Shown here one piece after another: positions 15,973 to 46,855 of a DNA stretch of 64,000 nucleotides. The DNA comes from Medicago truncatula. Taxonomy: Eukaryota > Streptophyta > Magnoliopsida > Fabales > Fabaceae. A program made the translations under genes and the position numbers. The stretch lies in NCBI RefSeq assembly GCF_003473485.1, contig NC_053045.1, positions 42,698,494 to 42,762,493 of the forward strand, in the 5' to 3' direction. The stretch's first letter is position 1. Every line of letters begins with the position of its first letter. The notes under the pieces are model-generated. The model had not been told where the DNA came from, searched no databases, and saw nothing but the letters and a program-made list of their open reading frames with translations.

Positions 15973-17784
15973 TTAGGAGGAAAGAAGTTTATCTGCGACA
16001 CCAGCTCTTGTGAGTGGAACACACATGAGATTATGTGTCCTTGGAACTGTGAGACCAGGCCTTTCTTCCATGCTAACCTTTGCATCATCACCTTTCAATA
16101 TTTGTCCTTGTGGGCCTGGTACCTGCAGATCAAAGCACTGGATAATAGATGCAAGCAGTGTGGCCATTCCTGCAGTAGCCAAATTGACTCCAGGACACAT
16201 TCTCCTTCCGGACCCAAATGGTAGAAGTTGGAAATGCTGACCCCTAAGATCAATTGAAGCTGCTTCACCTTCACCAACATTTTCTATAAACCTCTCTGGA
16301 CGAAATTCCAATGGCTTTACCCAATATTTTGGGTCTCTTCCCACTGCCCAGACATTGAAAAGTATTAGTGCTCCTTCTGGAATCACATACCCGTCGATCT
16401 CACACTCTTGAGTACATTTTCTCTTGACTACAGGTAGTGGTGGGTGCATGCGGAATGCTTCCTTCACGACGGCTCTAATGTAAGGAAGATTCTGAACATC
16501 TGATTCATCAACTAGTCCATCTTTTCCCACAACAGAGTCAATCTCTTCTCGAGCCTTCTTCAATACTCTAGGATTGTTGATGAGCTCTGATAAAGTCCAT
16601 TCAGTTGACACAGCCGTGGAATCTGTCCCCGCAGAGAAGAAATCCTGCATACACAAAGCGTTCTGAATGTAAGAGCATTGCAAGAGATGTAAAATTGCAT
16701 GTTTACTTCATAGTACATACACATAACTTACCAAACCATATTCAAAAGTGCCATAGTGGTATAAAGTTAAAAGTCTTAGTTCAATAACATCTCCTCAATA
16801 AATACTTAACACTATTGATCGATGAAATTTAAATTAATTAGCATATAATTAGAAGATAAGAAACAAAGACAATTAGAATAAACTTACCACAACAAGACCC
16901 TTGATTTGTTCCTTGGTAATTTTGATGTCCATGGTCTCATCCTGAGCATATTCAAGCAAAGTATCAAGAAAAACTACACTCTGCTCGCCCTCTATGATTT
17001 CTCCATTTTTTCTTTTGTTCACAATCTCTTGTCGTTTCTTGATAACCTTTTCAATGATAGGATCATACTTATTGAAAATCTCGTCAATTCTCTTCTCATA
17101 GTTTCCAAACTTAAACTTGTTCAATGGCCATATGAAGTTTGTAACACTATATTCTCCAAAGATCTCAAGAACATCGCGAGCAATATCTCTAACCTCTTCG
17201 GCCTCACCCAACATCATCGTAGAGATTGTGCTGTTTGTCCACTTGAGAAGCTCCTCAGTGACATTAAGTGGCTGTTGAGTTTCAGCACTATTAGCCATGA
17301 CCTTAAGAACCTTACGGATCTCTCGGCTCCTCAATGGCCTCAACTTGTTAATAGTGGTGGCGTTGAGCAGGTCGTTCATGATAAGCTTTCTAATAAACTT
17401 CCAGTAAGGTCCAAATGGAACCATAGCAACAGAGTTGTCATAGGTAAGACGACTAATAGCAGAGGTTTGGAACCTTGTGTTAAAGGAAGTAGCTTCATGG
17501 GTTTGAAGGAAAAGTTTAAACAAGTCAGGGGTTGAGGCAACAATGGTAGGCATGGAACCAAAGTAAAGAGTGTACAAAGGGCCATAACGTTCTCCTAACT
17601 TGATAAGAGTGTGGTGAAGAAGAGGGTTATCCAAAAGGTGAAGATGACCAATGGATGGAAGACGAGGTTTGGGACTCGGAGGATTGGGAAGGTGGCGAAG
17701 AGCCTTTGATTTTGCAGTAGGTGTTGGACGCAAGTGTAAGAAGAGAGCAATGAGCAATAGAGTAACTGCAAGTTCCACCAACAT
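15973..17784 (-). CDS. Isoflavone synthase (2-hydroxyisoflavanone synthase, CYP93C), copy 1
   Basis: Exon 1 is 17784-16888 (299 codons) and exon 2 is 16644-15973, with a 243-nt phase-0 intron, giving 522 residues. This ER-anchored P450 uses O2 and NADPH via P450 reductase to migrate the B ring of liquiritigenin or naringenin, yielding 2-hydroxyisoflavanones. Visible features are an N-terminal membrane helix (about residues 3-18), a proline-rich hinge (33-43), the C-helix W128xxxR132, the I-helix AGTDST (304-309), ExxR (361-364) and haem loop [11 protein letters not shown] with Cys449. The residues that give CYP93C its aryl-migration activity (Ser310, Leu371, Lys375 in the licorice enzyme) correspond to Ser308, Leu369 and Lys373 here. 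Ser44 after the hinge replaces the Phe of the other two copies, and Gly125 is Ala in them. It is intact and probably functional. Confidence 0.95.
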
Positions 17785-17911
17785 GGTGTATTGTAGTATA
17801 TTTACTTTAAGTTGTTAAGTATAATAAGAAGTAGAAACAATGTTCTTATTAGGTGTTGAGAACAAATAGGATGTATGTTTTGCTCTGAAGTAAAAGGTTT
17901 CCCACATTTCC

Positions 17912-17919
17912 CTTTTATA
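17912..17919 (-). promoter_or_regulatory. TATA box of isoflavone synthase copy 1
   Basis: TATAAAAG on the minus strand lies about 130 bp upstream of the start codon, in a block (GGCTTATAAAAGGGAAATG) that is identical in copy 3. Upstream similarity between copies 1 and 3 continues to about 18215. Confidence 0.75.
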
Positions 17920-18299
17920 AGCCTCAAGTAAAAGGGCAATTGTGATCAAAATATTTGTCATTCTTCAAAATAAAATATGGCGGCTTACGTACTCCTAGTG
18001 AAAGTGATTGCTCTATTTTGAAAAAAATAACCATATCACATGCAGGTTCTATAGTCCAAGAGAGACGTGGTTGCACTCTACACTACTAGTGAGCTATGTG
18101 TATTACCACCACCTACTAATTTTTCTATTTAGTCCAAGAAAGATGCGGCCGCATTTTTTAAAAATATTTTTCCAGACTCCAGTTGCGACTCGATTATGAA
18201 CCCCTGGTCAAATACTGTTTGACTCGAGGGCTGCAACATATTTTGGCTTCGGAACAATGCACCAAACACATGCACTTTCAATTGTGGTTTTGAAATATA

Positions 18300-19354
18300 C
18301 ACAAAAATATTTAATCTCAAATTTATGGATTTTTTATTTAGGGTTAATTAAGTTTTTGATCCCTATAAATATCTGCAGTTTTGTTTTTTGTCCATATAAA
18401 AATAAATCACATTTTTTAGTCCCTACAAAATTTTCCGTTAGTGTTTTTAGTCCCTGTTAAAATAAAATTTGTTTAATTATGCTTAAAATTTTAAAAATTT
18501 TAATGATTTTTTACATACTTGTTTAAAACATTATAAAAGGTTCCGCCACAATAAATTAGCTCAAAATTTTATTTTTAGGTCCAAATTTTCGTCAATTTTA
18601 TCTTGAATTTTGGGTGTTTTAAAAAAATTATATTTAATTCATTACATGTTAAAAAATTATAATTTTTTCTAAAAGAGATTATTATAATGTTCTTAACATG
18701 TCTGTTAAAAATCATTTAAAAATATAAAAGTTTAAGTATAATTAAACAAATTTTAATTTAATAGGGACCACCACATACTTTTAGTCCTTGTAAAATTAAA
18801 ATTTGCTTAATTGTGCTTAAACTTTTAAATTTGTAACATATTTTTCATATACTTACTTAGAATATTATACAAAGTTCCTCCGCAAAAAAGTAACTTAAAA
18901 TTTTATTATTAGGTCCAAATTTTCATTAATATAATCTTGAAATTTTGGCTTTTAGAAAAATTCATATTTAATTCATTATATGTTAAAAAACTAATTTTTT
19001 TTTATAAAAGAGTGTCTTACGATATTATGAACATGTATGTAAAAAATCTTTCAAAAATTTAGAAGTTTAAACTTGTCATTTTGTTTAACAGGGGGTCAAA
19101 ATCGTACTTTTTTAAACTTAAAAGGGAAAAGTACACTTTAGCCTAAATTTTTAGTCTCTATCTTTCAAAAAACAAAATTAATCTCTATAAATATTTTAAA
19201 TTTTATTTTTAGTTCCTCTAAAATTCTTTAACAAGTTTTGATCATCAAATGTTTTTTTCACAACTTTTGATTCAGATTTTAACTAAACTTAAGCGTATCC
19301 TTTACATTTATAAATGAAGTTTAAGTGTATATAATATATATTATTGTCAATGAA
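18300..19354. other. Degenerate AT-rich repeat sequence, no gene
   Basis: Phrases such as TTAGTCCCTACAAAATTTTC, GTCCAAATTTTCNTNAAT and TTAATTCATTANATGTTAAA recur two or three times. It begins GGGTTAATTAAG at 18341, like the termini of the hairpin elements elsewhere. It is probably a decayed or rearranged member of that family, but I could not locate a matching right end or a target duplication. Confidence 0.5.
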
Positions 19355-21190
19355 TTTGATTAAAAATAAATAAGAATTAAATGTATTTTTTCTGTGGGTT
19401 TTTCTCTTATTGGATATACATGGAAGATTAGAAAAAAGAGCAATGTTATTTAAATATCAATTTGATTGACAATCACACTGACAATCATATTTTTACAAAG
19501 AAAAACATGTGTTGGCACAAAAATCAAATCAATAGAAAGAGAAAGTAAAAATATAATAAAAAAAAATTATCACAAAAGTTATTAGAAAATAGATGTACAA
19601 ATATCATTTCTCTAACAAAACATGACCCATTGTTCTTCTGCATTCCTGGTTACAGTTGAGAAGGTCCCACTCAAATTTTGTCCTTTACTGCACATGTCTA
19701 CAAACACAAACTAATGCATAATGGTCCCATGAGTGCGTGTTTGGCTGTCCGGTAGAAATAATTGATTTTGATAAGATTCATTCCGTAAAATTGATATTAG
19801 TTAAAAATGATTTTGAATAATTTTTTTTTTTTTTTGCGTTTAGATACATTCATTTTAAAGTGAGTTAACAATAAATTAATGTGTGAAAATCAATTATTAA
19901 ACTTATTAAAGAAAACAGATAAAAACAAAACCACTTAGTTGGAGCTTCTTGCCTAAGTTTCTCTCGTTGCGTGGCATCTTTGAGAAGCTCATGATGAGTA
20001 TTTGATTAAAAATAAATAAGAATTAAATGTATTTTTTCTGTGGGTTTTTCTCTTATTGGATATACATGGAAGATTAGAAAAAAGAGCAATGTTATTTAAA
20101 TATCAATTTGATTGACAATCACACTGACAATCATATTTTTACAAAGAAAAACATGTGTTGGCACAAAAACCAAATCAATAGAAAGAGAAAGTAAAAATAT
20201 AATAAAAAAAAATTATCACAAAAGTTATTAGAAAATAGATGTACAAATATCATTTCTCTAACAAAACATGACCCATTGTTCTTCTGCATTCCTGGTTACA
20301 GTTGAGAAGGTCCCACTCAAATTTTGTCCTTTACTGCACATGTCTACAAACACAAACTAATGCATAATGGTCCCATGAGTGCGTGTTTGGCTCTACGGTA
20401 GAAATAATTGATTTTGATAAGATTCATTCCGTAAAATTGATATTAGTTAAAAATGATTTTGAATAATTTTTTTTTTTTTTGCGTTTAGATACATTCATTT
20501 TAAAGTGAGTTAACAATAAATTAATGTGTGAAAATCAATTATTAAACTTATTAAAGAAAACAGATAAAAACAAAACCACTTAGTTGGAGCTTCTTGCCTA
20601 AGTTTCTCTCGTTGCGTGGCATCTTTGAGAAGCTCATGATGAGTATTTGATTAAAAATAAATAAGAATTAATTGTATTTTTTCTGTGGGTTTTTCTCTTA
20701 TTGGATATACATGGAAGATTAGAAAAAAGAGCAATGTTATTTAAATATCAATTTGATAGACAATCACACTGACAATCATATTTTTACAAAGAAAAACATG
20801 TGTTGGCACAAAAATCAAATCAATAGAAAGAGAAAGTAAAAATATAATAAAAAAAAATTATCACAAAAGTTATTAGAAAATAGATGTACAAATATCATTT
20901 CTCTAACAAAACATGACCCATTGTTCTTCTGCATTCCTGGTTACAGTTGAGAAGGTCCCACTCAAATTTTGTCCTTTACTGCACATGTCTACAAACACAA
21001 ACTAATGCATAATGGTCCCATGAGTGCGTGTTTGGCTGTCCGGTAGAAATAATTGATTTTGATAAGATTCATTCCGTAAAATTGATATTAGTTAAAAATG
21101 ATTTTGAATAATTTTTTTTTTTTTTTTTTGTGTTTAGATACATTCATTTTAAAGTGAGTTAACAATAAATTAATGTGTAAAAATCAATTA
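19355..21190 (+). repeat. Tandem triplication of a 645-bp unit
   Basis: Unit 1 is 19355-20000, unit 2 is 20001-20645 and unit 3 is 20646 to about 21190 (lacking the last 100 bp). They differ by only a few substitutions (CTGTCCGG against CTCTACGG near 20394; TTGATTGAC against TTGATAGAC near 20755) and a variable T-run. The final part of each unit is a MITE-like sequence (GTGCGTGTTTGGCTGTCCGG onward). It runs to about 21320 intact after unit 3 but is cut in units 1 and 2, so a duplication breakpoint lies inside that MITE. No coding content is seen. Confidence 0.95.
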
Positions 21191-21669
21191 TAGAATCAAA
21201 AAATAATTACAAATTCTAACTTAAAGTAAAATCAGCGTAATTAATTCAACTCGACAATAACTAAATATGTTGCAATCAATACTACACTTCAAAATTAATT
21301 ATAGCCTATCTAAAAGTGAAATCCAACATACACATAAACATGTTGATATGTGAAAATTTTGAATCACGATGCCATAGAATCTAGATATATTCACAAAATT
21401 TTAATAATAAAAACTATATATATGTGAAATATTTATAAAAGAAAATAATTATGATAACAACTCAATATAGAACTTTAACTTAAAAAAAAGAACTCATTAT
21501 AGAATTTTTCTAATGTTGAGCTGGTAGCATGAGGACACCGTAATTCTCAATGTTGATGGAAGTGCTTTGAACAATCGAGGAAAGACGGGATATGATGGGT
21601 TAATACGTAAGCACGATGGAAGTTTCCTTTGGTACCATGGAGATCTCGAATATTTTACATGTTGAGATT

Positions 21670-21877
21670 GAAAAAAACTTACCTACTGTTCTTTATGAAC
21701 GGTTGGTGCTGTTTTATGTTGATTCATAAAATAAACTGCTTCAAACTGTGTAAACAAACACATCTAAAACAATGTCGTTTTATTTAATTTTTTTTTTGAA
21801 AGAACAATGTCGTTTTATTTAAATTTTGCGAAGAATCGGTTGAACAGTAGGTAAGACCCTATATGCAAGTTTTTCAC
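21670..21877. mobile_element. Small Mutator-like MITE, 208 bp, 9-bp TSD
   Basis: The insertion is flanked by GTTGAGATT on both sides (21661-21669 and 21878-21886). It carries ACTTACCTACTGTTC near its left end and the inverse GAACAGTAGGTAAG near its right. Removing it restores the reading frame of the RNase H fragment. The insert itself received a later tail-only insertion (21788-21802). Confidence 0.75.
21768..21822 (-). repeat. Tail-only micro-insertion, 15 nt, with 20-bp direct repeats
   Basis: Two perfect 20-bp copies of AACAATGTCGTTTTATTTAA (21768-21787 and 21803-21822) bracket a 15-nt insert that reads CTTTC plus A10 on the minus strand. It lies within the 208-bp MITE, so it is younger than that element. 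Confidence 0.8.
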
Positions 21878-22260
21878 GTTGAGATTCAAGCGTAGTTGAC
21901 TGGTATAAAGTTATGTTGGGAGGCAGATTATAGAAAGCTTATGTGTTTCTCCGACTCTCTTCATGTGGTACAGTTGGTGATGAAAGACATCTCGAGGTTT
22001 CATCATTATGCAAATCTCTTGAAACTCATCCATAATTATGCATATCCTTCAGGAAGGAAACTCTTGCGTTGAATATCCTTGCTAAGTTAAGAGCTAATAG
22101 TTCAGACCATCTTATTACATTTGATGAACCTCTTTCGTATTTATCACATACTTTACTAGTCGATGCTTTAGGCGTGTCCTTTTCAAGGACTTAGTTTTCT
22201 TCTTTTTTCTTTTTCTCATGCAAAAAAAAATAAAAAAAATAATACTATAGTCTCTACGTT

Positions 22261-22307
22261 AGAATATCAACTTAAACGAGTTTTCAAAAAAAGAATATCA
22301 ACTTAAA
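22261..22307 (+). repeat. Tail-only micro-insertion, 15 nt, with 16-bp direct repeats
   Basis: AGAATATCAACTTAAA occurs at 22261-22276 and 22292-22307 around the insert CGAGTTTTCAAAAAA. The insert again ends in CAAAAAA like the other tail insertions in the window. Confidence 0.7.
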
Positions 22308-22483
22308 TATCACTAAAAAAGCTCAAAATAAAACCTCGTCTAAACATCGGTGTACATACGAGTTTCTCACATATATTTTTAGATACGTATTCTCGAATAT
22401 TTTTGAAGTATTCGATACGAATCCGATAAAATATTTTAAAAAATAAAATAAATGAATTTAATACATTTAAACTATGTATTCTA

Positions 22484-22578
22484 TGAGCTTAGCTCAGTTG
22501 ACAGAAATATTACATATTATACGTAGGAGTTGGAGTTCGAACCGAGACACCACATACTATTTAACCAAAAAAAAAAAA
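22484..22578 (+). mobile_element. tRNA-derived SINE (short, degenerate)
   Basis: An A-box-like TTAGCTCAGTTGAC is followed at tRNA-like spacing by a B-box-like GGAGTTCGAACC, ending AACC plus poly(A). No clear target duplication is seen, so the boundaries are approximate. Confidence 0.65.
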
Positions 22579-22599
22579 CTACATATCCGTGAGTAGTCG

Positions 22600-23971: not shown

Positions 23972-25777
23972 TCAGGAAAGGAGTTTAGCAGCAACACCAG
24001 CTCTTGCAAGTGGAACACACATGAGATTATGTGCTCTTGGAACCGTAAGACCAGGTCTCTCATCCATGCTAACCTTAACATCATCACCTTTCAATATTTG
24101 TCCATGTGGGCCTGGTACTTGTAGATCAAAACACTGAATAATTGATGAAAGTAGTGTTGCCATTCCTGCTGTTGCCAAATTGACTCCAGGACACATCCTT
24201 CTTCCAGACCCAAATGGTAGAAGTGTGAAATGTTGACCCCTAAGATCAATTGAAGCTGCTTCACCTTCACCTTGGCTTGCATTTTCTAAGAACCTCTCTG
24301 GACGAAATTCCAATGGTTTTTCCCAATATTTTGGGTCTCTTCCCACTTGCCATACATTGAAAAGTATCAAAGCTCCCTCCGGGATCACATAACCATTGAT
24401 CTCACACTCTTCGGTGCATTTTCTCTTCACCACGGGTAGTGGTGGGTGCAAACGGAATACCTCCTTCACCATGGCGCGAATGTATGGAAGATTCTGAACA
24501 TCTGATTCGTCAACTAGTCTATCTTTTCCCACAACAGAGTCAATCTCTTCTTGTGCTTTCTTCCATACTCTTGGATTGTTGATGAGCTCTGCCAAAGTCC
24601 ATTCTGTTGCCACAGCTGTGGAATCTGTCCCTGCAGAGAAGAAATCCTGCAAACAAAGGAATTTAACTTAGCATATAATGGAGAGAGAAAATCTTATCTA
24701 AAATGTAATATACTCTCATCGGTCACTCTTACAAGCAAAAAACCACTTCTTAGGTTCATTGAATGAGTAATGGATGTGGTCATTTTTTCAGTGAACCTAA
24801 AAAATAGTTTTTTTGATTATAATAGTGACCGGAGGGAGTATGTATTTAACACCAAAGCAATTAGAAGAAAAGAAACTCACCACAACAAGACCCTTGATTT
24901 GTTCCTTTGTAATTTTGATCTCCATGGTCTCATCTTGTGCAAATTCAAGCAAAGTGTCAAGAAAAACAACATTCTGCTCGCCCTCTACGATTTCTCCATT
25001 TTTTCTTTTGTTCACAATCTCTTGTCGTTTCTTGATAACCTTTTCAATGATAGGATCATACTTATTGAAAATCTCCTCAGTTCTCTTATCATAGTTTCCA
25101 AACTTAAACTTGTTCAAAGGCCAAATAAAGTTTGTAACACTATATTCTCCAAAGATCTTAAGAACATCACGAGCAATATCTCTAACCTCTTCGGCCTCAC
25201 CCAACATCATGGTAGAGATTGTGCTGTTTGTCCACTTGAGAAGCTCCTCAGTGACATCAAGTGGCTGTTGAGTTTCAGCACTATTAGCCATGACCTTAAG
25301 AACCTTAAGGATTTCTCGGCTCCTCAATGGCCTCAATTTGTTAACAGTGGTGGCGTTGAGCAAGTCGTTCATGATAAGCTTTCTAATAAACTTCCAATAA
25401 GGTGCAAATGGAACCATAGCAACAGAATTATCATAGGTAAGACGACTAATAGCAGAGGTTTGGAATCTTGTGTTAAAGGAAGTAGCTTCATGGGTTTGAA
25501 GGAAAAGTTTAAACAAGTCAGGAGTGGATGCAACAACGGTAGGCATGGAACCAAAGTAAAGAGTGTACAAAGGTCCATAACGCTTTCCTAACTTGATAAG
25601 AGTGTGGTGAAGAAGTGGGTTATCCAAAAGATGAAGATGACCAATGAAAGGAAGACGTGGTTTAGGGCTTGGTGGATTTGGAAGATGGCGAAGTGCCTTT
25701 GATTTTGCAGTAGGTGTTGGACGTAAGTGTATAAAAAGAGCAATCACCAATAAAGCAATTGCAATTTCCACCAACAT
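23972..25777 (-). CDS. Isoflavone synthase (2-hydroxyisoflavanone synthase, CYP93C), copy 2
   Basis: Exon 1 is 25777-24881 and exon 2 is 24646-23972, with a 234-nt phase-0 intron (GTGAGT donor, unlike GTAAGT in the other two copies), giving 523 residues. It has the same reaction and domain order as copy 1. All CYP93C landmarks are present: AGTDST with Ser308, ExxR at 361-364, Leu369, Lys373 and haem-ligand Cys451. It differs from copy 1 at about 30 sites, for example ATEWTLAEL against [18 protein letters not shown] against RVLKKAREE, and ENASQGEGE against ENVGEGE, a 2-residue insertion before the haem loop. More than half of the intron is a Stowaway-like MITE. It is intact and probably functional. 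It is the donor or recipient of the exon-1 tract shared with copy 3. Confidence 0.95.
24713..24838. mobile_element. Stowaway-like MITE inside the isoflavone synthase copy 2 intron
   Basis: This 126-bp element runs from CTCTCATCGGTCACT to AGTGACCGGAGGGAG and is flanked by TA on both sides (24711-24712 and 24839-24840), as for Tc1/mariner MITEs. It makes up over half of the 234-nt intron and is absent from the introns of copies 1 and 3. Confidence 0.8.
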
Positions 25778-27029: not shown

Positions 27030-27038
27030 TAGATAATA

Positions 27039-32922: not shown

Positions 32923-34144
32923 TTTTTTTAGGCTTAATAACAGTTTTCGCCCTCTAACTTTCACAAAGTTACAATTTTAATCCTCTAAGAAAAAATTACA
33001 AAACTGTCTCCTAAGTTTTGCAACTGTAGCAGTTTTGCCCTCATAAGGCCAATTATTGGTAAAAAAAAAATAACACGTGGCACCTCACTTAGGGTGCCAC
33101 ATCAACGTAGACGGAGTCAAAATTGGCCTTAAGGGCAAAACTGTCACTGTAACACCCCGTTACCCAAAAACATTTAAATAACAAATATTCATCAGAGTAT
33201 TTCACCAAAACGGGCATGCTACACTACAATTCAAAAATTCTTAAATAGAAAATAAAACTATTTAATTCAACATCATCCATAGCTTCAAAATTTAGGCAGC
33301 GGAAAGCTTACATTTCAAATAACCACAACAACGGTTAAATTCTCCAAAATAATATCTTGACATAAAGCCTAACCAACAGTAACTCAATCAACCAGGCCAC
33401 ATCAACAAGTTCCAAAAATTGATACATAGGAAGGAAAACAACAATAATATAACATAATAATTCCCATCCCACGTATCAGAGCCCTAGACACGACTCTTGA
33501 GCCACCACCGACTATTCACAACAATAAATATAGATATCAAAATCTTCAATTGAATCTAACACCCTAAACATCAAATACATCATCTTGCAAATATAAATAT
33601 ATAATTCACAAGCACCAACAACCATCATCAAAATCCACACATCACAATATGTATATAAATATCTACATATATTCATCAACAACATCATCATCATCAAAGC
33701 AACAACTAAGACTCATGCAAATGACATGACAACACTGCTAAGACAACACCTTAGACTCCCCAATAGATGCAATTATGCATGTGGTACCAAACAGGACCGA
33801 AGCCCTCACCGCTTTTGATTGGTTAAAGCATTCATCAGGACCGAAGCCCTCACCGCTGTTGAGCAACTAGTGCTCCAGGACATGAGTCCTCTCCGCTGTT
33901 TTATGCATATGCAATGGACCTACTTGTGTATATCTACATACAACTTGACTATGCATACATACTCCATATGACTCCATTTTACAACATGTATGTTTAAATA
34001 ACAAATCATACATCATAACCATCAGTAACATTCAAACATTTCAGCAATCCAATCATCCAGAATAGTGCATAATTACATGAAACTATGCTCAACACAACAA
34101 CATTAAATCACTACCATTCATGCAATCAAAACAGCACGCAACAA

Positions 34145-35431: not shown

Positions 35432-35447
35432 TATTGCGGATCAATTT

Positions 35448-36943
35448 AATCCTCTTGCAAAATAAAATTTAAAGTAATTTATGATATTTTTATATTAAAG
35501 ATAAATTAGTTTTGACTTGGTATAGCAAAGAATAAATTTTCCCGAAATAAAAATACATTTTAAATTTTACTTTTGATGGTGAGTAAATTGACCCGCATAA
35601 AAATTGTATAAAATGAAAACGAGTTTTTACTCAAATTTTAAAATCTAAAGTATATAAATAAAATTTTAAGTTCCTTAAAAAAAATTAAAATTTTAAGTAA
35701 ATATAATTACGTTTAAAAATCATAGAGATATTTTTTAAAAGTATGTCTAAGAAATTACAAACAGTGCATGAAAAATTACCCTATATTTTCCCCACATTTG
35801 TTTTTTCAATTTTTAGTCAATTTTTACAATATTAATTTTAGCCTCCTCTCAAAATAATGAAGTTGTTATTGCTTAATGTCTTACAAAAAATCGAACTAAC
35901 CTAAGCCGTATTAGCTTGGTTTGGTTTGATTGTTTTTTTACAAGTCAACCGAACCAAACCAAATTGTTTGATTTTTTCCATCTTGCAGTTCAGATGAATT
36001 TTAGCAACAAAACCTAATCAAATCGTGCGACAAACACTTTTATTTAACGGTGTTCAAAATCTAATTAACACATTCGAAAACTGCAAACCGAACCAATCTA
36101 AATTGAAACCCGCAGAAAACCGCATTTGATGTGGTTGTATTCACACCATTTTTTCACTCAAACACGCGGTTTAGTTTACAATTTTTCTTTTGTCACCCGA
36201 ACCAAATCAAATCCAACTAAAAACTTAGAGAAACAATGACTTAGCCCAAACACTCACTCAACCTAAACTACTATTTTTTGGCTAATATTTTCACTCGGCC
36301 TTTTATTTTTTCCTGTTCCTTTTCAAATTAAGCTAAAAAATTACACAATAAAAATCGTATAAAATAAACAACATCAACATCATCCATAACAATTCACCAA
36401 AACCTCAAAAACAGGGAATAAATTTTACAAATCGTATAAAGCAATGGGTAATTGTAAATATTGATGAATGATTTTGATTATATTTTCAACAACCTTTTTC
36501 TCTTCTTCTTCTTTTTGTAATTAAAGTTAATTATTAATTGTTGCACTTTTTTTTTTGGTCAAGAATTGTTGCACTTTAATGATATTTGGAGTTAATTAAT
36601 TATTCCAGCTAATATAATCAAAATTGTTGACATAGTTTTTAAATTATGTGACGTCTCAAAAAAACTAATCAACCAAACCAATTTGGCATATTTTTTTATC
36701 TTGCACTTCAATCTAGCTTTAACTTCAAACTCTATTCAAAGAGAACAGATAGATTAAGAAGTAGAGTGACAAAACAGGTAGGTACATAAACTCCCTCTAA
36801 ATTATTCAATGAATATCCAAATTGATCCTTAAAAAGTTAACTTTAGAGATATGATGATGATGATTAGAAAAAATTGGTAGGTGCAAATAAGAATAAGAAA
36901 ACATAAAATAGCTACCCCCCATACTCAGGCCATCTTCAGTCCT
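35448..36943. other. Intergenic region upstream of O-methyltransferase A, no gene seen
   Basis: AT-rich. A stretch at 35880-36240 is rich in AACCGAACCAAACCAAAT-type words, a low-complexity repeat common in plant intergenic DNA. One tail-only insertion is listed separately. Confidence 0.5.
36536..36577 (-). repeat. Tail-only micro-insertion, 14 nt, with 14-bp direct repeats
   Basis: AATTGTTGCACTTT occurs at 36536-36549 and 36564-36577 around an insert that reads CTTGACC plus A7 on the minus strand. The GACCAAAA ending matches the 3' end of the SINE at 921-1069. Confidence 0.75.
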
Positions 36944-36951
36944 CACCTACC
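36944..36951 (+). promoter_or_regulatory. AC element / H-box-like site upstream of O-methyltransferase A
   Basis: CACCTACC contains ACCTACC, the MYB-bound AC-I type element found in many phenylpropanoid gene promoters. It lies about 210 bp upstream of the TATA box. The corresponding region before O-methyltransferase B does not keep it. The functional assignment is inference. Confidence 0.45.
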
Positions 36952-37169: not shown

Positions 37170-37273
37170 GGTCCACACTATAGTTTATTTCTTCATATCC
37201 ATTTCCATCATAACACATCAATCACATAAACAAAGTTCACCCCCAAAACAAACAGCAAAAAGAGAGAATAGAA

Positions 37274-38690
37274 ATGGCTTTCAGTACCAACGGTTCTGAA
37301 GAAAGTGAACTGTATCATGCTCAAATCCATTTGTACAAACATGTATACAACTTTGTTAGTTCCATGGCTCTCAAATCAGCCATGGAACTAGGCATAGCTG
37401 ATGCAATTCACAACCATGGAAAACCAATGACTCTTTCTGAACTAGCCTCATCTTTGAAACTTCACCCTTCTAAAGTTAATATACTTCACCGATTCTTACG
37501 CCTTTTAACACATAATGGTTTCTTTGCAAAAACAATAGTGAAAGGCAAAGAAGGAGATGAAGAAGAAGAAATAGCATATTCTCTCACACCTCCTTCAAAG
37601 CTTCTCATAAGTGGAAAACCAACATGTTTATCTTCAATTGTTAAAGGAGCACTTCATCCAAGTTCTTTAGACATGTGGAGTTCCTCAAAGAAATGGTTCA
37701 ATGAAGATAAGGAACAAACATTGTTTGAGTGTGCAACAGGGGAGAGTTTTTGGGATTTTCTTAACAAAGATTCTGAATCTAGTACTTTGAGTATGTTTCA
37801 AGATGCTATGGCATCTGATTCTAGAATGTTTAAGCTTGTTCTCCAAGAGAATAAACGCGTTTTCGAGGGTTTGGAGTCTCTTGTTGATGTTGGAGGTGGT
37901 ACTGGTGGTGTTACAAAACTCATTCATGAAATTTTTCCTCACCTTAAATGTACTGTTTTTGATCAACCACAGGTTGTTGGTAACTTAACTGGAAATGAAA
38001 ATTTGAACTTTGTTGGTGGAGATATGTTCAAATCTATCCCTTCTGCTGATGCTGTTTTACTTAAGGTATGCATGTTCAACAATTGTTACTATTTCAATTT
38101 TGGTCTATGAAGCACAGACACTGACACTGCACACACCGGACACAATATTGACAATGACACAGACACCAGAATTAAATTTAGTCAATGAAATTGTTTCAAT
38201 TTATTAACATGTGTCCGTGTTGAGATAATGTTAGACATTAAAATGTGTAGGATACATTACTTTCAATCCGAAGTGTCTCTGCTACATAACTTTTGCTAAT
38301 AAGGATAAAATGGTAGTAACTAGTAATAAATTAATATTTTGGATTAACCAAATAACTAAATTAAATGTCAATTGTCTTTTATCATAGTGGGTTCTGCATG
38401 ATTGGAATGATGAACAATCCTTAAAGATATTGAAGAACAGCAAAGAAGCTATTTCACACAAAGGAAAGGATGGAAAAGTGATTATCATTGACATATCAAT
38501 TGATGAAACAAGTGATGACCGGGGATTAACTGAGTTGCAATTGGACTATGATTTGGTGATGCTTACAATGTTTCTTGGTAAAGAAAGAACAAAGCAAGAA
38601 TGGGAAAAACTCATATATGATGCAGGTTTTAGCAGCTACAAAATTACCCCCATTTCTGGCTTCAAGTCACTCATCGAAGTTTATCCTTGA
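37274..38690 (+). CDS. (Iso)flavonoid 4'-O-methyltransferase-like enzyme (HI4'OMT/I4'OMT family), A
   Basis: Exons 37274-38065 and 38388-38690 join in phase 0 (AAG|GTATGC ... CATAG|TGGGTT) into 364 residues. It is a class I SAM-dependent plant O-methyltransferase: an N-terminal dimerisation domain (about 1-120), then the SAM site LVDVGGGTG (203-211), and catalytic-base His268 in WVLHDWND. Wording such as HAQIHLYKHVYNFVSSMALK, CTVFDQPQVV and FSSYKITPISGFKSLIEVYP is that of the legume 2,7,4'-trihydroxyisoflavanone / isoflavone 4'-O-methyltransferases, recognised from memory. Those enzymes methylate the product of isoflavone synthase to give formononetin after dehydration. Related enzymes use other positions (isoflavone 7-OH, 6a-hydroxymaackiain), so the substrate is inferred. 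It sits 3 kb upstream of isoflavone synthase copy 3 on the same strand. Confidence 0.88.
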
Positions 38691-39666
38691 TCCTGAAGTT
38701 GCTGCAAAGTTATAAATTCCGAATTAATAAGTTTCGATTCAGAGAGTCAAGTTAATAGTATTTATCACTTCCTGTTACAAATTAATTTCCCAAATTTGTT
38801 CTTTTCATAGAGATCATTGTTCCCTACTGCAAAAGTAGGTGTTTACATCACTACTCAAGTAAAGAGGAAAATAATGTCATGTTTGTTTCTGCAAGACAGA
38901 TTTATTTGAGATCGTATTGAAAACAAATTTATTTGAGATCGTTACAGAATATAAAAGCTTGCAAATTTATTCACCTCTACTATGTTTGTTTTTGTCTGAC
39001 TCTGCAACATTGTTTCCAATTAGGGGAGATTAAAAATTTGGTAGTGAATAGTGGGGCGGTGGAAAAGATGATTTCATAGTTCCTTATTTCAAGGATTAAG
39101 TTTGTCATTATGGCTAAAACAGTGATTGAGAAAGAGGATATCGGATGGTCATTAATGATCCAGCACATTCGCGTGGATCGTGCGAAATTAAATTTCGCAC
39201 ACTTAAGCATTATTCTTACAATAAATGTGATCAATGATGGTTGGATTTATAGAAGAGATTAGACTTTTACAATTTTCAAATCAAAGTTCTAGCAGAGAGA
39301 AGTATCCATAGTTGGTGTTCCATATTTTTCCTGTTATGTAAGATGGACAAATATCATTTTGATCACTCATGCCTTTTAACATGATTCGTGAAGTGTCCAC
39401 CACCCGACTTTATGGTCACCCTTCTGCATACGACGTTTGAACAACAACAAACAACTCAACTCTTACAACTAGGGTACGGTGACATACACCAATATAATAT
39501 CACTATCAAAATATCTTATGACACTTTACATAAGTCAATGTGTAGTATTCTCATGGAGGGTCAATCTAATACAAAAATTACTCATTATATTTATACATAT
39601 TTGAAGACTTGATAACTTTTTATTCTTGATGAATGGATGTGATCACTAATCTACTCAAATAATAGG

Positions 39667-39805
39667 GGGGATGGATAGTTCACTTGGTTGAACTAAGTGA
39701 TTAAAGAAGTTTAGAAGTTAAAGGTCCAAGGTTTGAATATTGGCAACGAAGAAAATATTAACGTAATATCTAAGATACTAACATTTGTCATTAAAAAAAA
39801 TAGTT
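39667..39805 (+). mobile_element. tRNA-related SINE, 15-bp TSD
   Basis: It begins GGGGATGGATAGTTCACTTG and has a degenerate B box (GGTCCAAGGTTTGAATATTG). It ends in a short A-rich tail. The flanks TACTCAAATAATAGG (39652-39666) and TACTCACATAATAGG (39806-39820) match at 14 of 15 positions. Confidence 0.7.
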
Positions 39806-40324
39806 TACTCACATAATAGGCTCTACGTCTTACTAGTATATCTCATTTCATAATAACTTTTGACTATGAATACTTTAATAAATAATGTCATTTAGTTCAA
39901 TTGAATCATACGATTAGATCACATTTAATGTTTTATTAAAACTAACTATTATAGAGACTTTATTATTTTTAAAACACAAAAAATTGGGTTAGAATCCTCT
40001 CCATTTATGTGTTTCTCCATTTCTTCAATGTGGAGAGATAAAGACACATAAAATCTTGAAAAAAGTAAAATATAATTAATGATGGTGGGACCCACTTAGT
40101 GGTAGGATCCACCATCTATTTTTTGTGTCTATCTCTCTTCAACTTGCAAAACTCCATTTATTTTGCCAAATGGAGAGGATCTTCACCTTTAATTATGAAT
40201 AAATAACCCTGATACAATTATTAAGTTTGAATATAAAACTTATAAACATGGTGAGAGATCACACTTTATTCTCTCATGAGTAAATTACACTTGAGAGGAT
40301 TCATTTCTCGCTCTCGCATCTCAC

Positions 40325-40367
40325 ATTGACAAAGTTTTTTTTTTTTTTTTTGAGAGATTGACAAAGT
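40325..40367 (-). repeat. Tail-only micro-insertion, 21 nt, with 11-bp direct repeats
   Basis: ATTGACAAAGT occurs at 40325-40335 and 40357-40367 around an insert that on the minus strand reads CTCTC followed by an A-run. Confidence 0.7.
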
Positions 40368-40724
40368 ATAATTCATAATTGTTAAGTTACTTATATGAAA
40401 AGATATATATTTTTTATTTTCCAAAGGTTTCTTCCAGAGGAAAATCTATTTGACATGTGTCAAACTCAAACACCGAATGTAGATATCTCTTTCAGCCATA
40501 ATCCAAACATTGGTTTGCCATATTACGCGAGTTTAGTTCTTTCCGCTAGACCCAACGTTCGTTGTTAGATAGATGTTTTTTTTAATTGATAATATTTTGA
40601 AAATCAAAAAAAAAATTCAATATTATTAGAATATGAAAAATCGCAGAAAACTATTATAATGTATATATTTATTTTTAATAAACTATTATAATGTATATTT
40701 ATCCTTTGAAGATTAAATGTTTTA

Positions 40725-40942
40725 GAGTTAATTAAGTTTTTAGTTCCTACAAAATAAAATTACACTTTTTAGTCCTTGTGACATTTTCCTTAAGCATTTT
40801 AGGGACTAAAAATGTTGATGGAAAATTTTATAGGGACTAAAAATGTTGATGGAAAATTTTAGACTAAAAAGTGTGATTTTATTTTGTAGGGATTAAAAAT
40901 AAAATTCTGAATATTTATAAGGATCATTTACTTAATTAACTC
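40725..40942. mobile_element. Hairpin MITE, 218 bp, 9-bp TSD (8/9)
   Basis: It runs from GAGTTAATTAAGTTTTTAG to CTTAATTAACTC with mirrored arms (TACAAAATAAAATTACACTT and its inverse). A short internal tandem repeat (GGGACTAAAAATGTTGATGG, twice) is present. The flanks AATGTTTTA and AATGTTCTA differ at one base. It is related in its ends to the decayed sequence at 18341. Confidence 0.75.
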
Positions 40943-41012
40943 AATGTTCTATATATATTTAACGCTATGAATTTATATATATGATCTTAAAATTTATGGT
41001 TGGACCTCATTC

Positions 41013-41062
41013 AACTTTACAATATCAAGTTACACCAAAAAAAACTTTACAATATCAAGTTA
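41013..41062 (+). repeat. Tail-only micro-insertion, 10 nt, with 20-bp direct repeats
   Basis: AACTTTACAATATCAAGTTA occurs perfectly at 41013-41032 and 41043-41062 around only CACCAAAAAA. The duplicated target is twice as long as the insert. Confidence 0.8.
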
Positions 41063-41234
41063 TATGCTCATGATTACTCCAATTATAAACATTTTTTCAG
41101 TTCATCTCTCATACAACACCAGACTTAACACATGGCGTTCCACTATTTAAAATTTATGGGTAGGTCACTAATCGATAGAGTAATTCAAAGTGCATGTGTA
41201 TGGATGCAATGTTGCGAAGCCAATTTATGGGTAG

Positions 41235-41400
41235 GTCACAGATTATATTTGACCGGGGGGTTCTCAATCGAGTCGCAACTGGAGTCTTGAAAAGTATTTG
41301 TTTAAGAAAAAATGAGCCACATCTCTCTTGGACTAAATACAAAACTAGTGGTAGGGGATCGGTACACTGATGCAGTAGTAGTATAAGCCGCCATATTTTA
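41235..41400 (+). promoter_or_regulatory. Upstream block shared with isoflavone synthase copy 1
   Basis: TCGAGTCGCAACTGGAGTCT and its surroundings here match, in inverse orientation, 18135-18215 upstream of copy 1 (TTGCGACTCGATT and AGACTCCAG). GCCGCCATATTTTATTTTG (41389-41407) matches its inverse near 17958. The two genes therefore share about 400 bp of upstream sequence with gaps, as inverted duplicates that include the promoter. Confidence 0.7.
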
Positions 41401-41488
41401 TTTTGATTGCTTATGTGTACAATACAACATTGAAGAATATTTTGATACCAACAAGTACCCTTTTACTTGTAGGACCAACCGTGGGGCT

Positions 41489-41496
41489 TATAAAAG
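41489..41496 (+). promoter_or_regulatory. TATA box of isoflavone synthase copy 3
   Basis: TATAAAAG lies 145 bp before the start codon in a block identical to that of copy 1 (GGCTTATAAAAGGGAAATG). Shortly downstream the leader contains CTCTCAGGGCAAAACAT, which matches copy 2 rather than copy 1. Confidence 0.75.
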
Positions 41497-41640
41497 GGAA
41501 ATGTGGGAAACCTTTTCTCTCAGGGCAAAACATAAATCCTATTTGTTCTCAACACCTAAGAGTAACTAATAAGAACTTTCTTTCTACTTCTTAGTATACT
41601 TAACAACTTAAGTAAATATACTACAAAGAAGCTATACACC

Positions 41641-43525
41641 ATGTTGGTGGAACTTGCAGTTACTCTATTGCTCATTGCTCTCTTCTTACACTTGCGTCCA
41701 ACACCTACTGCAAAATCAAAGGCTCTTCGCCACCTTCCAAATCCACCAAGCCCTAAACCACGTCTTCCATTCATAGGTCATCTTCACCTTTTGGATAACC
41801 CACTTCTTCACCACACTCTTATCAAGTTAGGAAAGCGTTATGGCCCTTTGTACACTCTTTACTTTGGTTCCATGCCTACCGTTGTTGCATCCACTCCTGA
41901 CTTGTTTAAACTTTTCCTTCAAACCCATGAAGCTACTTCCTTTAACACAAGATTCCAAACCTCTGCTATTAGTCGTCTTACCTATGACAACTCTGTTGCT
42001 ATGGTTCCATTTGCACCTTATTGGAAGTTTATTAGAAAGCTTATCATGAACGACTTGCTCAACGCCACCACTGTTAACAAATTGAGGCCATTGAGGAGCC
42101 GAGAAATCCTTAAGGTTCTTAAGGTCATGGCTAATAGTGCTGAAACTCAACAGCCACTTGATGTCACTGAGGAGCTTCTCAAGTGGACAAACAGCACAAT
42201 CTCTACCATGATGTTGGGTGAGGCCGAAGAGGTTAGAGATATTGCTCGTGATGTTCTTAAGATCTTTGGAGAATATAGTGTTACAAACTTTATTTGGCCT
42301 TTGAACAAGTTTAAGTTTGGAAACTATGATAAGAGAACTGAGGAGATTTTCAATAAGTATGATCCTATCATTGAAAAGGTTATCAAGAAACGACAAGAGA
42401 TTGTGAACAAAAGAAAAAATGGAGAAATCGTAGAAGGCGAGCAGAATGTTGTTTTTCTTGACACTTTGCTTGAATTTGCACAAGATGAGACCATGGAGAT
42501 CAAAATTACAAAGGAACAAATCAAGGGTCTTGTTGTGGTAAGTTTCTTCTGATTGTCTTTGTTTCTTATCTTATAAATACATTCTAATTAATTTAAATTC
42601 CATTAATCAACGGTGTTAAGTATTGGCATGATCGTGATTCCATTCATCATCTAACATAAAAAAAATCACACTAGCACATTTCTTTGTACCAACAAACTAA
42701 TTACTAAATTGAGAATCTCAATTTGAGATGTTATTGAACTAAGAAAGATTTTAAATTGTATACCACTGTGGTACCTTATTTGAATATGGTTTAGTAAGTT
42801 AAATTATATGTAATATGAACCTTGCAATGTCTAACATTGATTTGGGTATGCAGGATTTTTTCTCTGCAGGAACAGACTCCACCGCCGTGTCTACAGAATG
42901 GACTTTATCAGAGCTCATCAATAATCCTAGAGTGTTGAAGAAAGCTCGAGAGGAGATTGACTCTGTTGTGGGAAAAGATAGACTGGTTGATGAATCAGAT
43001 GTTCAGAATCTTCCTTACATTAAAGCCATCGTAAAAGAAGCATTTCGCTTGCACCCACCACTACCTGTAGTCAAAAGAAAATGTACACAAGAATGTGAGA
43101 TCGACGGGTATGTGGTTCCAGAAGGAGCACTAATACTTTTCAATGTCTGGGCAGTGGGAAGAGACCCAAAATATTGGGTAAAGCCATTGGAATTTCGTCC
43201 AGAGAGGTTCATAGAAAATGTTGGTGAAGGTGAAGCAGCTTCAATTGATCTTAGGGGTCAACATTTCACACTTCTACCATTTGGGTCTGGAAGAAGGATG
43301 TGTCCTGGAGTCAATTTGGCTACTGCAGGAATGGCCACAATGATTGCATCTATTATCCAATGCTTCGATCTCCAAGTACCTGGTCAACATGGAGAAATAT
43401 TGAATGGTGATTATGCTAAGGTTAGCATGGAAGAGAGACCTGGTCTCACAGTTCCAAGGGCACATAATCTCATGTGTGTTCCTCTTGCAAGAGCTGGTGT
43501 CGCAGATAAACTTCTTTCCTCCTAA
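41641..43525 (+). CDS. Isoflavone synthase (2-hydroxyisoflavanone synthase, CYP93C), copy 3, a mosaic of copies 1 and 2
   Basis: Exons 41641-42537 and 42854-43525 with a 316-nt phase-0 intron give 522 residues. All CYP93C landmarks are intact: membrane helix, W128xxxR132, AGTDST with Ser308, ExxR 361-364, Leu369, Lys373 and haem Cys449. Residues 1 to about 32 equal copy 1 ([20 protein letters not shown]). Residues from about 44 to 299 equal copy 2 at every site where copies 1 and 2 differ (F44, K65, V81, A125, and others). The intron and exon 2 are copy-1-like again ([25 protein letters not shown]), with private changes such as MIASIIQ and [11 protein letters not shown]. It lies between the two O-methyltransferases on the same strand, 2.95 kb after A and 1.97 kb before B. 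Confidence 0.96.
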
Positions 43526-45416
43526 AATATCTTGAGAGGATGAATCACCAACATATAGCCTCTCTTTGGTACTACAAAATTATGATGTAATTTTCTTATT
43601 TTTTCTGTCACAAAGGAAGTGTTGTAACTTGTAATTGCATACAAAATCTATAAATTTTATCATCCTATTCATTATTATCACACTTCTTGCTTGTCTCTCC
43701 TACTTTGTGGCAATTCTAAGTTAAGATGAACAATTTTGTGCTTATGATCTCTTCCTTTGGTTATTTTGTAGGTTTCATTGTGACACATCAATCAACTAAT
43801 TCATATTTAACTTCAATTATAGACTCTAAAGAATTCATTTTAGGTCTCACAACTTTACCTCACATATCAATGTTATATTCATATTTAATTTTATTGCAAC
43901 TTAAAATATTAATTTAATTATTTTAAATTAATATTAATACGAAAAAATAAAAATAATTATTTTAAATTAATATGAGAAAAATTGTGTGTGAAAATAAGAA
44001 CAAAGAGATGAAATTGTAAGAAAAAATTGTGTGTAATTTTTCCAAATGAACATATTTATAGCTAGAAGAATTTCAAAGTAACAAAGAAAAAGAGAAAAAA
44101 ATAAAAATAAAAAAGAAAGATCTCTGCATTATTCAAAACACAATTTATATTATTTTTTATTCAAAGTAATTGTTACTATCTAACGCAATGGTGATTACAC
44201 ACTGTCCAACTCCAAGTATGATTATTGCAAAATACTCATGTGTTGATACTACACGTACACGCTAGTAGACGGTAAGATAAAAGGTGTCGCGGGAGGTGCT
44301 CTTAGAAATTCAGAATTGAGATAGGTTTTATTTTTGTCATTCATCTATAATTTCTCACACTGGTATATATTTTTATCTTTATTAAAGAATGGAATTTTTT
44401 TTCCTACCTAGTTTATGAAACCAAAATTTCAATTCTTCCCTACTTGATTTTTTTTCTCTCCAAATTTGCCCTACTTTTATGACACCCCCTTTAGGGGTAG
44501 TCTACCTTGTTGGGCCCATTTGGTAGGTCGGCTTTATCTGTTTTATTTGTTTTTGACAATTGATGTCTACACTCCAAACAATGTTAAGAAATACCAGAAA
44601 ATGACAAATTAACTCCCGAATTCCATCAACTGTTAACTACCGCCGGTAAAAATTCATCTGCAGTTAACTTTCGATGAGGTTATATTGATAATTTTTTAGT
44701 ATTTCTTAGTATCCTTTGATGTGGGACCAACATTCTTCATTTTCTTTTATTATCTCACCCAAATTAAATGAGTTATTTGAGCTATTAACCCTGAAAATTA
44801 ATTAATAAGTCTAATGTTTTAGAAGTGTGTGTATAACAAAGATACTTGCGAAGAAGTCTAAAGAAACATTATCTTAAAAATGGTGTAGTAAACACTTTGA
44901 AACTTCAAAACTTGACTTTTCTTTACATTGAAACTTCCAAAATTTGACTTTTTCTTACATAAAATTTGTAATTTATTTCCATTTTTACTTCTTGATAAAT
45001 GATCACTCAAAACTAATTGACATATTGAGAAAGAAAGAAATATAGATAATGATGTGATAAATGTAATATGTTAATATAAGAACTGTATTCAAAATTATAG
45101 GAATTAAGCTCTGGATTTCTTTTGAGAAAAATGGAGGCCCTTACTCATGATTTTTTAAATTTTTAATCAAGGGCAGGTACAAATTAGACAACTCATTAGA
45201 AGAAGGTACATTGATACATGTGGTCAAGTAATTTGATAAATTGACACAATTACACCGACACCGCTCAATAATCACTTATTACCTAGTACTAATATACGGC
45301 TGCCTCAGCCCTCAATAATGACTTAAGATTTGCAGCCAAACAAGACACAAGATAATGCATTTGTCTTCCCTGTCTTCATTTTAGACCCTTATACTTTTTG
45401 TTCAACATTTGAAGCA
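43526..45416. other. Intergenic between isoflavone synthase copy 3 and O-methyltransferase B
   Basis: The 3' UTR of isoflavone synthase copy 3 is at the left. An AT-rich repeat follows (TTATTTTAAATTAATAT twice near 43920 and 43955). A segment at 44620-44690 (GTTAACTACCGCCGG, CAGTTAACTTTCGATGAGG) resembles the internal words of the element at 8701. No gene is seen. Confidence 0.5.
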
Positions 45417-45424
45417 TATAAAAA
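45417..45424 (+). promoter_or_regulatory. TATA box of O-methyltransferase B
   Basis: TATAAAAA lies in the same CATATAAAAAGGTCCACACT block as gene A, 77 bp before the chosen start codon. Confidence 0.75.
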
Positions 45425-45493
45425 GGTCCACACTAGTCTATTTTTTCATATCCATTTTTGCACCAAAGTAAACCTGAACAAAAAACATTAGAA

Positions 45494-46855
45494 ATGGCTT
45501 TCACTACCAACTGTTCTGAAGAAAGTGAACTGTATCATGCTCAAATCCATTTGTACAAACATGTATACAACTTTGTTAGTTCCATGGCACTCAAATCAGC
45601 CATGGAACTAGGCATAGCTGATGCAATCCATAACCATGGAAAACCAATGACTCTTTCTGAATTAGCCTCATCTTTAAAACTCCACCCTTCTAAAGTTAAC
45701 ATCCTCTATCGATTCTTACGCCTTTTAACACACAATGGCTTCTTTACAAAAACAACAGTGAAAAGTAATGAAGAAGAAGAAACAGCATATGGTCTTACAC
45801 CATCTTCAAAGCTTCTCATAAGTGGAAAATCGACATGTTTATCAACGCTTATTGAAGGAGCGCTTCATGCAAGTTCTATAGACATGTGGAAGTCTTCAAA
45901 GAAATGGTTCAATGAGGATAAGGAACAAACTCTTTTTGAGTGTGCAACAGGAGAGAACTATTGGGATTTTCTTAACAAAGATTCTGAATCTGGTACTTTG
46001 AGTTTGTTTCAAGATGCTATGGCTGCTGATTCTAGAATGTTTAAGCTTGCTCTTCATGAGAACAAGAATGTGTTTGAGGGTTTGGAATCTCTTGTTGATG
46101 TCGCGGGTGGAACCGGTGCTGTCACAAAGCTTATTCATGAAGCATTTCCTCAGATCAAATGCACTGTTTTTGATCAACCACAGGTTGTTGGTAACTTAAC
46201 TGGAAATGAAAATTTGAACTTTGTTAGTGGTGATATGTTCAAGTCTATCCCTCCTGCTGACGCCGTTTTACTCAAGGTATGTATGTTCATCAATTGTTAA
46301 TACCGACACATTAATTTAGACGTACATTTGCTTACGTACAAGCACTTTCATATTTTAAATTATTATTAGTGTCGATATGTTAGTATCAAAGCCGTGTTGT
46401 GTCTGGTGTTTGTGTTAGAGTTTCATACATGAGGAATAAAGATAAATAGGTAAATTAAGCTGCATATTTTGTATCAACCAAATGGCTTAATGAAATCTTT
46501 TTTTTTTTTTTTTTTGAGGGAAGCTTAATGAAATCTTAATATTTTGTTATAGTGGGTTTTGCATGACTGGAATGATGAATTATCCTTAAAGATATTGAAG
46601 AACAGCAAAGAAGCTATTTCACATAAAGGGAAAGATGGAAAAGTGATTATCATTGACATATCAATTGATGAAACAAGTGATGATCGTAGATTAACTGAGT
46701 TGCAATTGGAATATGATTTGGTGATGCTTACAATGTTCCTTGGTAAAGAAAGAACAAAGCAAGAATGGGAAAAACTCATATATGATGCAGGTTTTAGCAG
46801 CTACAAAATTACCCCCATTTCTGGCTTCAAGTCTCTCGTTGAAGTTTATCCTTAA
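45494..46855 (+). CDS. (Iso)flavonoid 4'-O-methyltransferase-like enzyme (HI4'OMT/I4'OMT family), B
   Basis: Exons 45494-46276 and 46553-46855 (AAG|GTATGT ... TATAG|TGGGTT, phase 0) give 361 residues. I start at ATGGCTTTC because gene A starts there too; an in-frame ATG 36 nt upstream (45458) would add 12 residues that gene A lacks. It has the same fold and motifs as gene A. The SAM site reads LVDVAGGTG (200-208), as in characterised HI4'OMTs as I recall them, whereas gene A has LVDVGGGTG. Catalytic His is 265. Differences from A cluster in residues 88-130, a variable loop with a 3-residue deletion, and in a few sites of the C-terminal half. The intron carries a tail-only insertion. The promoter, leader and 3' UTR are alignable with gene A, so this is a recent segmental duplicate. 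Confidence 0.88.
46485..46537 (-). repeat. Tail-only micro-insertion, 23 nt, in the O-methyltransferase B intron
   Basis: GCTTAATGAAATCTT occurs at 46485-46499 and 46523-46537 around an insert that reads TTCCCTC plus an A-run on the minus strand. It lies 16-68 bp upstream of the intron's 3' splice site and inserts a long T-run there, enlarging the polypyrimidine region. Confidence 0.75.

Follow-up and report, generated by a model that had tools for sequence, protein, structure and literature searches.

Related systems and general features of the locus

Isoflavone synthase (IFS, CYP93C) converts liquiritigenin to 2,7,4'-trihydroxyisoflavanone; HI4'OMT then methylates the 4'-hydroxyl, and dehydration yields formononetin, from which medicarpin is made. 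This report describes a group of three IFS genes and two O-methyltransferase (OMT) genes on chromosome 4 of Medicago truncatula, located within a stretch of 64,000 nucleotides (contig NC_053045.1, positions 42,698,494 to 42,762,493, forward strand), referred to below as the window. In lupin, IFS genes reportedly multiplied by whole-genome and local duplication, with intragenic recombination among the copies (Narozna et al., Plant Science, 2017); that study is not known to treat a linked OMT. In the strict sense, a plant gene cluster is a run of adjacent genes from three or more non-homologous enzyme families that serve a single pathway. The closest described system is the triticein cluster of wheat (PMC10620232). 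Like the Medicago locus, it combines a cytochrome P450 (P450) isoflavone synthase with O-methyltransferases, and it is pathogen-induced. It differs in that the P450 is CYP71F53, that chalcone synthase is included and that it occurs in wheat and Aegilops tauschii, whereas the legume cluster is made up of two families and seems more ancient. In Spatholobus, IFS was likewise duplicated locally, giving four closely spaced copies on a single chromosome; no OMT neighbours are mentioned in the passages on this array (PMC7500164).

The genes and enzymes of the Medicago locus are themselves known. The HI4'OMT structures of M. truncatula (PDB 1zg3, 1zga and 1zgj) correspond to the first OMT gene of the cluster, OMT1; the other gene, OMT2, is a second copy. 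Compared with known CYP93C enzymes (licorice CYP93C2; M. truncatula IFS1-3), the three IFS copies, named IFSa, IFSb and IFSc, have the same motifs and nothing unusual. Three IFS genes were counted in annotation Mt4.0 (PMC5853973), MtIFS1 and MtIFS3 are Medtr4g088195 and Medtr4g088160 (PMC11035146), and HI4'O-MT was used as MtrunA17_Chr4g0046341 (PMC12675435, 2025). The literature searched, which takes in few subscription journals, gave no report of linkage between IFS and a 4'-O-methyltransferase (4'OMT); nor did it describe the locus as a physical cluster that is complete for IFS and recurs in legumes, or a promoter triplet described below.

The locus is probably a compact two-family cluster for entry into the isoflavonoid phytoalexin route, in which IFS and 4'OMT would be ancient neighbours, each expanded locally, with OMT1 and IFSc under joint control.

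Gene content of the cluster

The five genes are as follows:
15973..17784, (-) strand: IFSa, CYP93C isoflavone synthase (2-hydroxyisoflavanone synthase), 522 amino acids; exons 17784-16888 and 16644-15973; spliced model, motifs and tree
23972..25777, (-) strand: IFSb, CYP93C isoflavone synthase, 523 amino acids; exons 25777-24881 and 24646-23972; spliced model, motifs and tree
37274..38690, (+) strand: OMT1, HI4'OMT, 364 amino acids; exons 37274-38065 and 38388-38690; spliced model and identity with PDB 1zg3
41641..43525, (+) strand: IFSc, CYP93C isoflavone synthase, 522 amino acids; exons 41641-42537 and 42854-43525; model and 100% identity (rounded) to M. truncatula isoflavone synthase P0121
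45494..46855, (+) strand: OMT2, HI4'OMT paralogue, 361 amino acids; exons 45494-46276 and 46553-46855; model and identity with OMT1 at 324 of 361 aligned residues

The order along the window is IFS(-), IFS(-), OMT(+), IFS(+), OMT(+). The cluster spans 31 kb, its limits, 15973 and 46855, coinciding with the coding ends of IFSa and OMT2, respectively; OMT1 and IFSc are 3 kb apart, IFSc and OMT2 2 kb. In the spliced models the introns of all five genes start with GT and end with AG, and all five frames are open, which confirms the three intact CYP93C genes and two intact OMT genes, in this order, of the initial annotation.

A tree built from 46 rows places all 41 IFS rows, IFSa, IFSb and IFSc among them, in one clade apart from CYP93B, the licodione and flavone synthases, with support of 100/100. 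The heme and I-helix motifs are kept in all three copies. Their residues Ser308, Leu369 and Lys373 align with Ser310, Leu371 and Lys375 of the licorice protein P0135, the trio of residues important for aryl migration. By clade, motifs and residues, all three have the sequence characters of CYP93C isoflavone synthases. A search of the 430 Mb genome with IFSc returned the six exons of the window at 88-100% identity and then nothing above 59%, with 83 of the 624 candidates scored. The three of this cluster are the only IFS genes that the search found in M. truncatula.

Residues 7-364 of OMT1 are identical to PDB 1zg3, an isoflavanone 4'-O-methyltransferase, over the whole chain (358/358). IFS and an enzyme of the HI4'OMT type are non-homologous neighbours for consecutive steps of the pathway, as first proposed. 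OMT1 presumably methylates 2,7,4'-trihydroxyisoflavanone, like the published enzyme. A genome search with OMT2 (113 scored of 125 candidates) found other matches above about 60% only in one tandem array at C4:11.9-12.0 Mb (11916334-12035267), about 30 Mb from the cluster, with six exon-1 matches; beyond the array, exon-1 matches were at most 50%. Because exon-1 identity in the array is 71-75%, the pair of OMTs most similar to the solved HI4'OMT is the one located with the IFS genes, not in the distant array. For about 8 such OMT loci in 430 Mb, the probability of finding one less than 15 kb from any given position is about 0.06% (arithmetic from the genome searches); the proximity of IFS and OMT in M. 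truncatula is not due to chance. Three array copies (at 11949787, 12002815 and 11942940) have identical exon-1 scores, which suggests recent duplication.

With the five proteins (E up to 0.01), no further IFS or OMT match was found outside the five genes in 100 kb to the left and right; 60 kb further right was searched with the OMT proteins alone. A tandem OMT pair of a third type lies at C4:42888771-42895465, 126-133 kb right of the window. Of the solved structures, isoflavone 7-OMT 1fp2 is the one that exon 1 of this pair resembles most. Exon by exon the pair is 74-84% identical to Canavalia VNO77_04913, which is on the same contig as the Canavalia IFS, 21 locus numbers away.

Linkage in other legumes

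Contigs and locus numbers of protein matches were compared across legumes, using the best 120 of 1295, 2215 and 3227 matches. A common contig was inferred from equal contig sizes, and sharing a contig is weak evidence by itself. Among the matches listed, IFS and a protein of the 4'OMT clade are on one contig in 11 of the 15 species that have both on named contigs:
Canavalia: contig shared, close together; 04892 and 04894/5/7, gap 2
Psophocarpus: contig shared, close together; 11865 and 11866-11871, gap 1
Clitoria: contig shared, close together; 04476 and 04484/04486, gap 8
Stylosanthes: contig shared, close together; one 130-kb scaffold
Crotalaria: contig shared but distant; gap of 1405 locus numbers
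Vicia villosa, Cicer, Abrus, Lotus, Lupinus luteus and Arachis stenosperma: contig shared

In soybean, the older numbers of IFS2 (Glyma13g24200) and IOMT (Glyma13g24210) are adjacent (PMC4076065). In a second source, the isoflavone 4'-OMTs Glyma.13G173300 and Glyma.13G173600 lie on either side of IFS2, Glyma.13G173500 (PMC13120069). The passages with these gene numbers make no remark on linkage. Synteny with related legumes had been named as a check in the initial annotation; linkage was found for soybean from the published gene numbers, and Trifolium pratense, among the clovers, gave no shared contig. As judged from contigs and locus numbers, the linkage is no novelty of Medicago. Its recurrence elsewhere among legumes suggests that the two defence-pathway steps were paired long ago.

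Promoters and expression

Two promoters of the cluster contain a triplet of CCTACC/GGTAGG sites, an AC/H-box-like, MYB-type element:
36777..36951, no strand assigned: CCTACC/GGTAGG triplet in the OMT1 promoter, -497 to -328; one of only two triplets in 324 kb
41159..41355, no strand assigned: GGTAGG triplet in the IFSc promoter, -482 to -291, with two of three sites in the repeated TTTATGGGTAGGTCAC; the other triplet

The 324 kb region contains 77 CCTACC sites. Triplets within 200 bp occur twice, at OMT1 and IFSc, with about 0.1 expected (arithmetic). Six motifs were tried, from a list chosen once the genes were known. CCTACC and the overlapping AC element are enriched in the promoters of OMT1 and IFSc, the count being reached in 0 of 200 shuffles for each; the same shuffle test gave no enrichment for OMT2, IFSa or two neighbouring control genes. 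W-box, G-box and bHLH motifs were not consistently enriched over the five promoters. CCTACC is absent from the 607 bp upstream of six paralogues of the 4'OMT clade, one of which has two AC elements in its promoter, and from the 600 bp upstream of the two right-hand OMTs. Because the only two CCTACC triplets in 324 kb are in the promoters of OMT1 and IFSc, shared MYB-type control of these two genes is suggested. Binding of the MtIFS1 promoter by the MYB factor MtPAR is reported from yeast (PMC5066740), and an elicitor induces IFS1 and IFS3 together in M. truncatula (PMC5853973).

Cluster status and possible passive linkage

The linkage could also be passive. IFS and an OMT array would then have been neighbours in ancestral papilionoids and merely never been separated, with neither selection for clustering nor joint regulation. 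This is a serious alternative, although we lean away from it: close linkage is recurrent, in three species also between further IFS copies and another OMT clade (see below), and OMT1 and IFSc have the promoter triplet in common.

Several observations weigh against a selected and jointly controlled cluster. Only two families of the pathway are present in the window, fewer than the three of the strict definition. No other family of the pathway was found in 54 of the 71 open reading frames (ORFs) of at least 130 amino acids within 100 kb on either side, a scan that short exons would escape. The families in the scanned ORFs were LOB, homeodomain, Myb, histone, Ras, NAC, FHA, RRM, late nodulin, cellulose-synthase-like, PIF1-like helicase and retrotransposon. 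Among the matches listed, no contig is shared in the remaining four of the 15 species (Lupinus angustifolius, Mucuna, Gastrolobium and Trifolium pratense). In L. angustifolius, the listed IFS and the 4'OMT clade are on separate contigs of 18-20 Mb; the Mucuna and Gastrolobium scaffolds are short, and the T. pratense contigs are of unlike size, which may reflect different assemblies. Closeness is shown in only 4 of the 11 contig-sharing species, in addition to soybean (gene numbers) and Medicago. As to the promoters, the triplet motif comes from a set of six that was selected with the genes already known, a short repeat accounts for two of the three IFSc sites, equal exon scores hint that three of the six paralogue promoters are nearly the same sequence, and IFSb is mildly enriched as well (16 and 6 of 200 shuffles for CCTACC and the AC element, respectively). 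As to expression in soybean, under polyethylene glycol (PEG) one mutant had the two 4'-OMT genes down and 28 genes of other steps up, and in the other mutant IFS2 was unchanged with Glyma.13G173300 down (PMC13120069). Differing expression of OMT and IFS2 appears in this source and also in PMC6374408. The soybean reports speak partly against joint expression in that species.

The second methyltransferase gene

The solved structure closest to OMT2 is 1zg3 (E 2.3e-214), and the protein is 100% identical (rounded) to M. truncatula P0001, named 'putative methyltransferase' at NCBI. It is conceivable, and we hold the idea tentatively, that OMT2 is not a second 4'OMT of the route and has moved to another substrate (e.g., the pterocarpan 6a-hydroxymaackiain) or is weakly active. 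Its promoter is unlike that of OMT1, with no CCTACC or AC element over 800 bp. The protein differs from OMT1 by 37 substitutions, including Ser in place of Gly248, where 40 of 44 relatives have Gly, and relatives from pea and vetch at 85-89% identity carry the name 6a-hydroxymaackiain 3-O-methyltransferase. On the other side, the frame is open and the Ala of the glycine-rich loop is shared by 12 of 44 relatives; for these reasons OMT2 is not obviously dead, and the idea of a dead gene is not supported.

A second methyltransferase clade beside other IFS copies

Other IFS copies adjoin a different OMT clade, by locus number, in all three species with both among the matches listed. The clade includes proteins P0074, P0068, P0069 and P0103. 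The pairs are:
Lupinus angustifolius: IFS TanjilG_26569 and OMT TanjilG_26568
Crotalaria: IFS RIF29_41303 and OMT RIF29_41301-41302
Clitoria: IFS RJT34_13752 and OMT RJT34_13754

Canavalia and Lupinus luteus have such IFS copies and no second-clade OMT among the matches listed. The IFS copies outside group A (IFS-A) form two supported groups, for whose union the tree gives no support. Long branches separate the 4'OMT clade from the second clade (midpoint-rooted tree), and in M. truncatula the best matches to the lupin protein P0074 reach only about 50%. The second clade has close matches in Acacia, Senna and Neltuma, for which no IFS is among the 120 matches listed, and matches of 69% in oak; because of these matches it is probably older than IFS.

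Pairs of IFS-A with the 4'OMT clade are present in Medicago, soybean, Canavalia, Psophocarpus, Clitoria and Stylosanthes. A whole-genome duplication took place at the base of the papilionoid legumes. IFS might have arisen or settled beside an OMT array before this event, which would have given two paralogous pairs (IFS-A with the 4'OMT clade, other IFS with the second clade), kept by selection, with the MYB control of OMT1 and IFSc as the present trace. We consider this extended history doubtful.

Origin of the copies

Synonymous divergence (dS) over the whole coding region is 0.316 for IFSa-IFSb, 0.204 for IFSa-IFSc, 0.236 for IFSb-IFSc and 0.315 for OMT1-OMT2 (95% 0.225-0.407). For exon 2 of IFSa and IFSc it is 0.266 (95% 0.178-0.366). 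The values for IFSb and IFSc are uneven along the gene, with one tract free of differences:
42001..42426, (+) strand: gene-conversion tract shared by IFSc and IFSb, at codons 121-262, zero differences; dS 0.0 in the tract versus 0.51 in exon 2

The longest run of agreeing polymorphic sites between IFSb and IFSc is 18 (columns 373-789), and 0 of 20000 permutations reach it. Exon 1 of these two genes was homogenised, by gene conversion or by crossing over between copies in opposite orientation. IFSa and IFSc also have a long run, of 13 sites, reached in 508 of 20000 permutations.

In self-comparison, upstream homology of IFSa and IFSc extends in pieces to about 0.67-0.84 kb, and IFSb and IFSc have about 140 bp of 3' flank in common. 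Homology between OMT1 and OMT2 sets in about 90-125 bp upstream of the start and ends about 155-160 bp past the stop, a unit of 1.6-1.7 kb. A midpoint-rooted tree places OMT2 with pea, vetch and clover proteins and not with OMT1, at weak support (80/54); the OMT duplication may therefore predate Medicago. No IFS-OMT spacer has a second copy in the window, and a remnant search found no OMT remnant elsewhere in it, including beside IFSa or IFSb. Because no such spacer is duplicated, the preferred reading of the alternation is that each of the two families expanded locally and separately at one locus; one old event with the spacers lost is also compatible, because the ages of OMT1/OMT2 and IFSa/IFSc are similar. 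Copying of an ancestral IFS+OMT unit as a whole, the initial explanation of the alternating order, is unlikely: the overlapping dS ranges of OMT1/OMT2 and IFSa/IFSc exon 2 and the IFSc flanks, shared with IFSa on the 5' side and with IFSb on the 3' side, would suit it, but the spacers are single, IFSa and IFSb adjoin no OMT remnant, and, because the gene orientations differ, an inversion would be required too.

Other features of the window and its flanks

The left part of the window contains a histone H3 gene (10144-10554, (+) strand) and a GH17 glucanase gene with an X8 domain (11045-12442, (-) strand), both usable as synteny markers for the left flank. The reading frame 61195-62253 has no confident Pfam match; by a motif, it resembles part of an auxin response factor. 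One repeat lies between IFSa and IFSb:
19354..21191, (+) strand: tandem repeat in the IFSa-IFSb spacer, unit of about 646 bp, copies 98.7% alike, from self-comparison

Parts of this repeat are similar to 57115-57640 on the right side of the window (self-comparison). Rfam matches to microRNA precursor families were MIR2617 at 33142-33229 on the (-) strand and MIR2599 at 51236-51367 on the (+) strand; the latter may derive from a small transposon, because it is inside an inverted repeat (51021-51584). No tRNA was found in the window. Outside it are pieces of a cellulose-synthase-like gene (three ORFs, 15-18 kb to the right) and an ORF with a Myb-like DNA-binding domain about 85 kb to the left.

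Proposed function and significance

In the favoured reading of a two-family cluster, and from what is known of the families, IFSa, IFSb and IFSc would make 2,7,4'-trihydroxyisoflavanone from liquiritigenin, and OMT1, perhaps with the help of OMT2, would methylate its 4'-hydroxyl, dehydration then yielding formononetin, the precursor of medicarpin. IFS and 4'OMT would already have been neighbours early in the papilionoid legumes, often staying linked, and each family would then have expanded locally in the Medicago line. OMT1 and IFSc would be controlled together via their common cluster of CCTACC (MYB-type) sites; the promoters of OMT2, IFSa and IFSb differ from these, and the three genes would probably be expressed differently.

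Few plant compounds of defence and symbiosis have been studied as much as isoflavonoids. If this reading is true, the recurring IFS/OMT pair of papilionoids would be a case of a metabolic gene pair persisting for tens of millions of years, and breeders would have one locus controlling entry into the formononetin and medicarpin route.

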